From contig JAUQPZ010000005.1 of NCBI GenBank assembly GCA_030550155.1, positions 1 to 62,520 on the forward strand: 62,520 nt of DNA, written 5' to 3'. Positions 50,190 through 53,286 of this stretch are shown piece by piece. Position numbers and translations under genes: made by a program. A model generated the notes under the pieces. The model made no database searches and was not told the origin of the DNA. It saw nothing but the letters and a program-made list of their open reading frames with translations. Source of the stretch: Thermoproteota archaeon. Lineage in GTDB: Archaea; Thermoproteota; Nitrososphaeria_A; Caldarchaeales; Calditenuaceae. Position 1 is the first letter of the stretch. Every line of letters begins with the position of its first letter.

Positions 50190-50744
50190 CTAGGCGCGCT
50201 CTTCTTGACGCCCAACTCCGAAGGCTCTGAGCCTCACCAGGTTGGTTCTACCGGCGCGCTCCACCTCTACTACGTTTCGACTCCGCAGGGATAAGACTAT
50301 TCTGTAAGTTTGAAGCCTCGTGAACCCAAGCTCCTTGGCTATCTCCCTCTGCTCCGCCACTCCTCCACGCCTAATCAGATATTCGACAACCCTGCTCTCC
50401 CTATCATTTAGCCCCACCACATTGCCTTCTCCAAGGCTTCCATGCACCAGAAGGATTGCTATGCCGCCCGAGACGAGTATGAGGGATGCCGCAATTGCCG
50501 GGATTATCATCCAGAACATCGCAGACTCGTGCATAGGCATACCTGTTATACTCCTCATTGCCTCGCTCATGATGTTGTTGTGCTGCCAGAGGCTGAGGAG
50601 CGAGATCAGGAGAAGAGAGGCTCCAGATATGGTCATTGCATAGCCAAAAACTCTGCCGTGGCCGCCAAGAGACAATCTGGCTAGACCCTCAGGCAGGCCT
50701 ATATATTTATTCCGTGGACTTTGGTCAGGCAAGATATCAAGCAT
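50190..50744 (-). CDS. Membrane-anchored winged-helix transcription regulator
   Basis: About 184 residues. Two transmembrane segments (FGYAMTISGASLLLISLLSL and MFWMIIPAIAASLILVSGGI) flank a short external loop rich in Met and His (NNIMSEAMRSITGMPMHES). The C-terminal half is a MarR/ArsR-like winged helix (LIRRGGVAEQREIAKELG then RLQTYRIVLSLRSRNVVEVE). I place the start at the ATG at 50744, about 33 bases from the TATA region at 50770-50782; a longer frame starts at 50792. The DNA-binding domain faces the cytosol and the Met/His loop faces outside. It is divergent from the PepSY/Met-rich/DUF411 genes and probably senses the metal they handle. Confidence 0.78.
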   Translation of the reverse strand: MLDILPDQSPRNKYIGLPEGLARLSLGGHGRVFGYAMTISGASLLLISLLSLWQHNNIMSEAMRSITGMPMHESAMFWMIIPAIAASLILVSGGIAILLVHGSLGEGNVVGLNDRESRVVEYLIRRGGVAEQREIAKELGFTRLQTYRIVLSLRSRNVVEVERAGRTNLVRLRAFGVGRQEERA

Positions 50745-50769
50745 TCCATTGTTTCGCCAGCGTTTCAGG

Positions 50770-50782
50770 AAATTATTATAAT
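50770..50782. promoter_or_regulatory. Near-symmetrical AT promoter shared by the regulator and the metal cluster
   Basis: AATTATTATAATG. The core ATTATAAT is a near-palindrome, so it reads as TATA-like on both strands. It lies about 33 bases before the regulator's ATG (50744) and about 40 before the ATG at 50819. A second plus-strand box CATTAATAC (50792-50800) is closer to 50819. One site may set both directions. Confidence 0.5.
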
Positions 50783-50818
50783 GCCGCTCCACATTAATAC
50801 TATCAGTGTGACGAGGAG

Positions 50819-51550
50819 ATGGACAGGTCTGTTTTAATGTCTGTAGCTTTGGCTACCGTGATTGTGGGCGCGGCGGTTGGCGCCATTATCCTGTATGAAT
50901 TGTGGGCTAGAGGGCCTCCAACTAATTACACCGCAGTTGGGAGTGTGGCGTCCCCAAATTATGACCAAGGCCCATGGATGATGAGTGGATGCCCCTGCCA
51001 AGGATGGGTGGGGGGCCAAGCTCCAGCACCTAGAGGAACTAGAATAACCATTGAACAGGCCCGTGATTTGGTTGAGAATTATGTCTCCTCTAGAATAGGC
51101 CAAGGATTTAAGATACATGAGATAATGGAGTTTGAGAATAACTTCTACGCCATCGTTATTGAGAGTGATTCTAATGTCGGTGCGTTTGAGCTGATTGTAG
51201 ACCCATATACTGGCGTGGTTTCTGCGGAGCCTGGGCCGAACATGATGTGGAACAGGAAATATGGGATGCATTACGCCATGATGGGGTGGAGCACCGAGCC
51301 CTCCATCGACATGCCTATTGGGCCAGAGGACGCTGTGGAGCTGGCGCGGAGATACTTGGCCCAGAGGTTCGGTGAGGAGGTAGTAGTATTGGAGCCCATG
51401 AGGTTTTATGGCTACTACACTCTGGACTATATGATTGGTGGGGAGGTGCATGGAATGCTCAGCGTAAACGGCTACACAGGAGACATTTGGTACCACTCGT
51501 GGCACGGCGGATTCATTAAAGAGCTAGAACTTGAGGGCGAGGAGCATTGA
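50819..51550 (+). CDS. Anchored extracytoplasmic protein with two PepSY-like repeats, Met/Cys/His-rich
   Basis: 243 residues. A single N-terminal helix (ALATVIVGAAVGAIILYELW) exports and anchors it. Two repeats of about 65 residues (ITIEQARDLVENYV ... VDPYTGVVSAEPG and IGPEDAVELARRYLAQ ... VNGYTGDIWYHSWHG) resemble the PepSY domain. Clusters MMSGCPCQGW and MMWNRKYGMHYAMMGW, and WYHSWHG, could coordinate soft metals. ATG at 50819 with GAGGAG immediately before it. It overlaps the next gene by 4 bases. Confidence 0.78.
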   Translation: MDRSVLMSVALATVIVGAAVGAIILYELWARGPPTNYTAVGSVASPNYDQGPWMMSGCPCQGWVGGQAPAPRGTRITIEQARDLVENYVSSRIGQGFKIHEIMEFENNFYAIVIESDSNVGAFELIVDPYTGVVSAEPGPNMMWNRKYGMHYAMMGWSTEPSIDMPIGPEDAVELARRYLAQRFGEEVVVLEPMRFYGYYTLDYMIGGEVHGMLSVNGYTGDIWYHSWHGGFIKELELEGEEH

Positions 51551-51933
51551 GCCAAGTAGAGAAGCCTTTGGCGGCCTTCATACTCTCCCTAGCCGCTGGG
51601 GCGCTGGTGCTGGTTGGAGGCGTGGCCTCACTCTTGTGGATGTATTATCCAGGCTGGATGAGTTGGCGGGGCATGATGATGCCGATGATGATGTGGTGGG
51701 CGGCGTGGGTCTGGTGGATCCCGTCGATCATAGGCATAGCTTCAGGAGCAGTCATAATCGTAGGTGCCCTATCAATGTATAGCAACCCACAGCTCTCCCA
51801 GCTCTGGGGAGCCCTGATACTCATATTCTCGCTGGTGAGCCTCTTAGGGCTGGGTGGATTCATCGTAGGAGCACTAATGGGGATAGTGGGCGGCATCTTG
51901 GCGATAGGCTGGAGACCGGTTGCGAGGGGCTGA
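51547..51933 (+). CDS. Met- and Trp-rich small membrane protein
   Basis: 128 residues with three to four transmembrane segments (FILSLAAGALVLVGGVASLL, IPSIIGIASGAVIIVGAL, LWGALILIFSLVSLLGLGG, IVGALMGIVGGILAIGW). The loop and start of helix 2 read SWRGMMMPMMMWWAAWVWW, an extreme Met/Trp run. Met-rich segments of this kind are used by copper transporters, which fits its DUF411 neighbour. No family is recognised. Confidence 0.74.
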   Translation: MSQVEKPLAAFILSLAAGALVLVGGVASLLWMYYPGWMSWRGMMMPMMMWWAAWVWWIPSIIGIASGAVIIVGALSMYSNPQLSQLWGALILIFSLVSLLGLGGFIVGALMGIVGGILAIGWRPVARG

Positions 51934-51936
51934 GAT

Positions 51937-52443
51937 ATGAGGAAAAGAAGAAAGCGACTACTGATTAATGTCTCCATCGCGGTCTCAATAACACTACTGC
52001 TAGTAGTACTCGCCATCCTGAGCCAAGGAGAAAACAACACTCAACCTGAGGGAAAAACCGTCACAACCCATCCGTTGGTAATTACCCTGTACAAGGATCC
52101 GACCTGCGGCTGCTGTGGCGAGTACGAGAAATATCTGAGGAGCATGGGCGTAGAGCTGGAGACAAGGATAGTTGAGCAGGGGGAGCTGCTGGCTCTAAAG
52201 CAGAGGCTTGGAATACCGGGCACGTTCTTCAGCTGCCACACATCCATCGTGGCTGGCTATTTTGTTGAAGGGCACGTACCGTTGGAGGCCATCTATAAGC
52301 TGCTTGGGGAGAGGCCGGATATAGATGGCATAGCTCTTCCAGGCATGCCTGAGGGGGCGCCTGGGATGGGAGACCATCGGGCCGGCCCGCTACGAATTTA
52401 TGCAAAAGACGGCGACTCGATAAAACTCTTCCTCGAGCTCTAG
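51937..52443 (+). CDS. DUF411 domain protein, membrane-anchored, putative copper-binding
   Basis: 168 residues. One N-terminal helix (LINVSIAVSITLLLVVLAIL), then the DUF411 domain with YKDPTCGCCGEYEKYLRSMG (residues about 52-71), FFSCHTSIVAGYFVEGHVP (about 97-115) and ALPGMPEGAPGMG (about 137-149). These motifs match DUF411 proteins, which occur near copper-resistance genes in bacteria. The Cys-rich loop CGCC and the CHT motif are plausible metal ligands. It ends the three-gene unit opposite the membrane regulator. Confidence 0.88.
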   Translation: MRKRRKRLLINVSIAVSITLLLVVLAILSQGENNTQPEGKTVTTHPLVITLYKDPTCGCCGEYEKYLRSMGVELETRIVEQGELLALKQRLGIPGTFFSCHTSIVAGYFVEGHVPLEAIYKLLGERPDIDGIALPGMPEGAPGMGDHRAGPLRIYAKDGDSIKLFLEL

Positions 52444-52830: not shown

Positions 52831-53286
52831 TTGCGTCGAAAAGCCCTAATCCTATTAGCCGTCGCCGCGGCCGCGGTCGCCGCTCTAACATTGCTCTCCA
52901 CTCAGCTGCTAGAGGTCGGAGAAAGGGGTCCCAGATATTTTCTCGTAGATGTTGGGGGTGAGCGTTTTGTGATCTACGTTGTGGACCCTGAGACGATTAG
53001 GCTTGCTGAGGATAATATGAGGGGGTTGAATAGCCTCTTCCCGATAGGTGAGCTTGAGCGGGGTGACGGCGGATTCAATAAGCCATGGAGCTGGCATCTC
53101 CGGCCGAGTTCTGTCAGGATGGTCGAGGTGGCCATAGAGCTTTGCGATGGTTTACCAAGCCATGTGGAGAGGGACCTAGACTATTGGGTTGAGACCGTTG
53201 GCCGCTATTGTCCATGGAGCGGCAGAATAGTCGCATCCTCTAGTAATCCAGGCGAGCTTCAAGGCTCGGCATCTCCGATTAAATAG
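52831..53286 (+). CDS. Secreted BP74-like small protein
   Basis: 151 residues with an N-terminal signal or anchor (ALILLAVAAAAVAALTLL). The body contains PRYFLVDVGGERFVIYVVDP, then NKPWSWHLRPSSVRMVEVAI, LCDGLPSHVERDLDYWV, and GRYCPWSGRIVAS. The order PWSWHL-ELCDG-CPWS is that of the BP74 N-terminal domain family, whose role is unclear. Two Cys may bridge outside the cell. TTG start fits the leaderless promoter at 52798-52808. Confidence 0.72.
   Translation: MRRKALILLAVAAAAVAALTLLSTQLLEVGERGPRYFLVDVGGERFVIYVVDPETIRLAEDNMRGLNSLFPIGELERGDGGFNKPWSWHLRPSSVRMVEVAIELCDGLPSHVERDLDYWVETVGRYCPWSGRIVASSSNPGELQGSASPIK

Follow-up and report, generated by a model that had tools for sequence, protein, structure and literature searches.

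A putative copper-responsive envelope operon and its membrane-integrated regulator in Caldarchaeales

A gene for a membrane-tethered regulator that diverges from three genes for envelope proteins, in the 62,520-nucleotide stretch of a Calditenuaceae archaeon analyzed here (contig JAUQPZ010000005.1; the window), raises the questions of what this cluster responds to and how a signal from outside the cell might reach the DNA. An earlier note, made from the sequence, had read it as a candidate copper-handling system. Our analysis favors a copper-responsive cell-envelope operon under a membrane-integrated one-component regulator, a reading to which we assign a probability of about three in four on the strength of gene linkage, homology to CopG, conserved ligand-type residues and GTTTCA sites common to the copG and mcoP promoters.

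The genes and their predicted products

The four genes named in the earlier note are present in the list of open reading frames, and the MMMPMMMWW run and the CGCC and CHT motifs were all found in the translations; the exception is the start of the regulator (REG), which we moved from GTG 50792 to TTG 50675 (Table 1). Translation of REG most likely begins at this TTG and yields 161 residues, because the relatives are mostly 149 to 163 residues long, the additional N terminus is not conserved and the TATA-like box is appropriately placed; on the same three grounds we rejected GTG 50792. A counterpart of the box TAAATATATAGG, namely, ATTTAAGCATTCC, is kept in most members of the genus. Counted from TTG 50675, the REG-PepSY intergenic region is 143 bp long. 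The PepSY and Met-rich reading frames overlap by 4 bp and a gap of 3 bp separates the latter from the DUF411 gene, so that these three genes probably constitute one operon. Scans for sigma-70 promoters and terminators found nothing over shuffled sequences, as expected for an archaeon. Beyond the operon (52831-53286 of the window) lies a gene for a secreted or anchored protein with an N-terminal BP74 domain (PF23621, E 2e-30), which adjoins a YCII protein gene and is kept across the genus.

Table 1. Positions of features at the locus, in the numbering of the window
Feature	Position	Strand	Remarks
REG (regulator)	50190..50675	-	161 aa from TTG 50675; predicted two-TM hairpin and C-terminal DUF7343/TrmB-like winged helix (wHTH)
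Longer ORF of REG	50190-50792	-	Start GTG 50792; probably a mis-start
Predicted extracytoplasmic loop of REG, WQHNNIMSEAMRSITGMPMHESAMFW	50511..50591	-	From the alignment of regulators
TATA-like box of REG, TAAATATATAGG	50698-50709	-	At a leaderless distance to TTG 50675; inside the longer ORF
Operator, GTTTCG-CCAGC-GTTTCA	50751..50767	none	GTTTCA-type half-sites in an 11-bp direct repeat
Candidate TATA box of the PepSY operon, AAATTATTATAA	50770..50781	+	Immediately 3' of the operator
PEPSY	50819..51550	+	Predicted membrane-anchored, outside-facing; two PepSY domains
Met-rich membrane protein	51547..51933	+	DUF6114/DUF4064 type
CopG (DUF411)	51937..52443	+	Predicted membrane-anchored, thioredoxin-like

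The only Pfam families matched by REG are DUF7343 (43.7 bits, cutoff 27.6) and TrmB (27.4 bits, cutoff 25.6), both above threshold and neither accompanied by a TRASH domain; a search of PDB sequences with the REG profile gave no match. Its AlphaFold model, of modest confidence (pLDDT 76.8, pTM 0.43), contains long helices at residues 5-42 and 50-81 followed by the winged helix, and hydropathy and model together place two TM-like segments and a DNA-binding-type domain in a single protein. In an alignment of 19 regulators drawn from three families, the sole invariant residues of the loop are His-x3-Met, which the predicted topology locates just outside the first membrane helix; in alignment A3 Met35 and Met39 are invariant and WQH nearly so. 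The additional loop residues are Met in Caldarchaeales and Cys in Thermoproteaceae (MCPFCPFPSPM). Given the presumed topology and the putative binding of metal and DNA, an external-loop sensor signaling through the membrane to DNA fits the predicted anatomy of two TM segments and a winged helix as well as the conserved GTTTCA sites described below.

Of the envelope proteins, the DUF411 product is the clearest: it matches PF04214 with 79.7 bits (E 1.3e-22, gathering cutoff 27) and, by phmmer, the CopG structures 6wis and 6wje over residues 46-146 (E 8.6e-25), with CGCC and GMPEGAPGM aligned. Judged by sequence, it is homologous to CopG, a protein with a tetranuclear copper cluster, and keeps CxCC and both methionines. 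According to a review (PMC7558416), the cluster of CopG is bound by CxCC together with two methionines, and the protein has links to copA and cusCBA; PA4714, a DUF411 protein, rises 16-fold under copper stress (PMC6444534). The likeness to CopG/CutG extends over the whole domain and includes CGCC (C57, C59 and C60), C100-H101-T and the GMPxGxPGM segment, the last of which is missing from Thermoproteaceae copies; unlike that family, the form at this locus is archaeal, shares its operon with the PepSY and Met-rich genes under a membrane regulator and is apparently membrane anchored, with one N-terminal TM-like segment (residues 9-27) after RKRRKR that would orient the domain to the outside.

The PEPSY protein scores 21.6 bits against PF03413 (E 2.8e-4), below the gathering cutoff of 24, and its AlphaFold model comprises one anchor and two PepSY domains (pLDDT 84.7). 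A PDB sequence search with the PepSY profile found no match, and the best structural match of the model is YpeB (5boi, E 9e-4), which likewise has two tandem PepSY domains and a membrane anchor; the match is weak, however (TM 0.32), and the residues that never vary among 51 archaeal and bacterial homologues (M143, W144, M213, W224, H226, W228 and H229) are a Met/Trp/His set outside the PepSY definition. The Met-rich protein belongs with DUF6114 (PF19609, 37.7 bits, E 3.4e-9, above the cutoff of 27.9); its GMMMPMMMWW sits between hydrophobic segments 1 and 2, and the Met-rich loop is kept in homologues from several archaea.

Linkage and genomic neighbors

Among named genomes the closest are Candidatus Calditenuaceae MAGs and archaeon HR02, which places the window in a Calditenuaceae-like member of the former Aigarchaeota. 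The four genes, in the order REG-PepSY-Met-rich-DUF411, were found in all six Calditenuaceae genomes of the genus that we examined (in G003, split over two contigs) and in four genomes of a second family (Caldarchaeum and HR01-like), where the genes on either side differ, so that the conserved linkage anticipated by the earlier note is borne out in 6 genus and 4 other-family genomes with unrelated flanks. The whole 13-kb neighborhood is conserved within the genus, as would be expected if the genes were adjacent merely through regional conservation, but the recurrence of the block in other families refutes such an account, and conservation of the intergenic footprint greatly exceeds that of the DNA around it; we regard chance synteny as extremely improbable.

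Farther afield, two genera (L170-L172) lack copG beside their REG, PepSY and Met-rich genes; in one of them copG is found at another site, with only a few genes between it and a CopA ATPase (L026, L028). In eight genomes that we label Thermoproteaceae (this name and Pyrobaculum being assigned to compared genomes from the mcoP match and gene content), REG is divergent to PepSY at 7 of 8 loci and lies beside CopG at 5 and beside CopA at 6. Unrelated archaea show PepSY-Met-rich-CopA (L050) and Met-rich/CopA/PepSY (L053) arrangements, both with CopA above the TIGR01511 cutoff, and in L241 a REG homologue is flanked by two copper ATPases. In Caldarchaeum-like genomes REG adjoins a NosL-thioredoxin fusion and a two-domain multicopper oxidase. 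The fusion (L030 3432-4376, L029 8752-9696), a NosL domain joined to a TlpA/ResA-like thioredoxin, resembles a copper chaperone and a thiol reductase in one protein. The copper assignment made in the earlier note is strengthened by these CopA, NosL and multicopper-oxidase neighbors, by CopG homology and by an operator common with mcoP.

PepSY homologues were rejected as a copper marker by themselves, since many have other neighbors. One sub-lineage without REG (L168, L169, L174) lies among TusA, sulfite/nitrite-reductase-like and cysteine-desulfurase genes, and many bacterial homologues neighbor ArsR regulators, two-component systems and CPH-type (Zn/Co-like) ATPases; the family is therefore not copper specific. 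Such contexts raise the alternative of a thiol, redox or reactive-sulfur stress response at the envelope, in which the copper-type residues would serve redox chemistry and CopG would be a thiol oxidoreductase. The thioredoxin-like fold and CxCC motif of CopG agree with this proposal, as does the occurrence, in other lineages, of PepSY homologues beside TusA, DsrE-like, rhodanese and glutaredoxin-like genes, but the sulfur-linked PepSY genes come without REG and CopG, and the distinctive neighbors of REG are always CopG, CopA, NosL or a multicopper oxidase. We consider a thiol or sulfur response improbable.

The statement that the usual copper genes are missing stands in part. CopA and CsoR are absent from the vicinity of the locus, and CsoR, the four-helix regulator (PF02583), was found in none of 44 genomes of relatives and nowhere in the window genome, but the window genome does encode CopA, on contig 36 (TIGR01511, 591 bits), with SCO1 on the same contig. 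No TRASH-type copper regulator was detected in this genome, which is about 90% complete, a limit that applies to the absence of both regulators. A TusA-like gene, like SCO1, is close to this CopA (L166 8500-10548), which carries an N-terminal DPVCGM (YHS-like) segment in place of HMA domains.

A haem-copper oxidase is encoded on contig 27 of the window genome, and a second alternative is that the three envelope proteins insert copper into haem-copper or multicopper oxidases while REG senses shortage or the state of assembly, not excess. Among members of the order, COX1 is above the cutoff in 17 of 18 genomes with a strong PepSY match versus 7 of 26 without one, an association confounded by phylogeny; the block adjoins the NosL fusion and a multicopper oxidase in Caldarchaeum-like genomes, and in Rhodobacter a link between CutG/CopG and CutO is described (PMC7558416). 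Against a role in assembly, the Thermoproteaceae, L050 and L241 loci pair these genes with CopA, an exporter, and the window genome has no NosL. Oxidase assembly is a possible but unlikely function of the cluster.

A candidate GTTTCA operator shared among copper genes

GTTTCA is present in 22 of 23 REG-PepSY intergenic regions, with 51 copies in 2661 nt compared with about 1.6, summed over four groups, in mono-nucleotide composition shuffles that take no account of shared ancestry within groups. The agreement across distant families is independent of a correction for such ancestry; in an unbiased count GTTTCA/TGAAAC ranks as the first hexamer, alone or tied with an overlapping neighbor, in each of three lineages separately. 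The genus and the second family share GTTTCA-n5-GTTTCA at the center of otherwise diverged intergenic DNA. In Caldarchaeales and others the half-sites are arranged as a direct repeat of 11 bp, and Thermoproteaceae often have them as a palindrome of 18 bp, GTTTCA-n6-TGAAAC. A search of the operator of the Caldarchaeales genus for an inverted repeat found none, its repeats being direct. The pattern GTTTCN6GTTTCA occurs once in the window genome, at 50751-50767, where the left half-site is degenerate (GTTTCG).

The order of GTTTCA followed by TATA recurs in Thermoproteaceae, in which copG is preceded by GTTTCA sites and the copG and mcoP sites are found even when the genes are elsewhere in the genome. 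A search of nine whole genomes of Thermoproteaceae found six copies of the exact palindrome and none of a control pattern; five of the six are at the REG locus and one is 46-63 bp upstream of mcoP. Four copies of GTTTCA lie in the mcoP promoter (L247 1629-3062, a Pyrobaculum genome), and we therefore predict copper-dependent expression of mcoP. The encoded multicopper oxidase is Tat-exported and agrees over all 448 residues (1038 bits) with PDB 3aw5, McoP of Pyrobaculum aerophilum. This enzyme is described as oxidizing cuprous ions efficiently (PMC11111587).

When 13 additional genomes were searched, the direct repeat was mostly upstream of REG, PepSY or genes for small secreted Cys/Met-rich proteins. 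Three small secreted proteins, paralogues of one another (L239 3316-3684, L240 2559-2909, L242 2865-3227), are rich in Cys, Asn and Tyr and have a C-terminal part rich in Gly and Met; each has GTTTCAn5GTTTCA upstream and is a candidate secreted metal-binding member of the same regulon. Other operator matches, at a phosphate-transporter gene (G021), a polymerase-like gene (G239 C59) and a helicase-like gene (G190 C34), were taken as chance because they fall inside coding DNA.

The copA promoter of the window genome has no GTTTCA pair, only a single GTTTC upstream, so that the regulon in this genome may consist of this operon alone. With the operator confined to this locus, we dropped the idea of REG as a global regulator there.

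Proposed mechanism and significance

We infer the identity of the metal, its binding, the topology, the contact between REG and DNA and the direction of control as follows. REG would be embedded in the membrane by its helical hairpin, the winged helix facing the cytoplasm, and the short loop on the outside (H-x3-M with further Met, or with Cys in Thermoproteaceae) would bind Cu(I), and perhaps Ag(I), when copper outside the cell rises. The resulting change in the loop would be relayed to a winged-helix dimer, which would bind the GTTTCA repeats just upstream of the TATA box and activate transcription; activation is preferred to repression solely because the sites, like those of archaeal activators, immediately precede TATA-like boxes. 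The products of the operon would act outside the membrane, where CopG may hold copper in a Cys-bridged cluster and oxidize it or hand it on, and the double-PepSY and Met/Trp-loop membrane proteins may buffer or pass on Cu(I), thereby protecting the surface, and perhaps feed a haem-copper oxidase.

Each part is of a kind already known; what appears to be undescribed, in the open-licence literature that we searched, is the combination, the REG family and the operator. In Escherichia coli, CusRS and CusCFBA provide envelope copper sensing beside a cytoplasmic sensor, with Met-rich extracytoplasmic buffers, and CusS is a histidine kinase. The proposed system would parallel the CusS arm in sensing at the envelope and in its Met-rich buffers, but at this locus sensing and DNA binding would be combined in a single protein, and there is no RND pump. 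Like the TRASH regulators CopR and CopT (Pyrococcus CopR, PMC7830388), REG would be an archaeal regulator of the copper type, encoded divergently from the operon that it is proposed to control; whereas CopR is a soluble HTH protein with TRASH, REG lacks TRASH and has a predicted two-TM sensor hairpin, an HTH of another family and a different operator. A TRASH protein adjoins copA in Caldarchaeum-like genomes, with REG elsewhere. ArnR and ArnR1 of Sulfolobus (cited in PMC13286277) are likewise archaeal membrane-bound one-component regulators with an HTH, two TM helices and no kinase, but the HTH of ArnR is N terminal, whereas that of REG is C terminal, and ArnR targets archaellum genes.

More broadly, we lean towards the view that REG represents a phylum-wide family of membrane-integrated one-component copper sensors of about 160 residues with a His-x3-Met/Cys loop, activating GTTTCA-marked genes that include copG, the double-PepSY operon, mcoP and, in places, copA. 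A search of open-licence papers found no described archaeal regulator that senses extracytoplasmic copper, and we know of none.

Archaeal copper control is known mainly through the cytoplasmic TRASH-type CopR. If the proposal is correct, it would add an outside-facing archaeal copper sensor that works without a kinase, and two protein families that lack a name, that of the double-PepSY WYHxWHG protein and that of the Met-loop DUF6114 protein, would gain a function. Because Pyrobaculum aerophilum is culturable, the hypothesis is open to immediate testing, and if it holds, the GTTTCA sites would supply a DNA code by which the copper regulon could be read directly from genomes, including that of this species.
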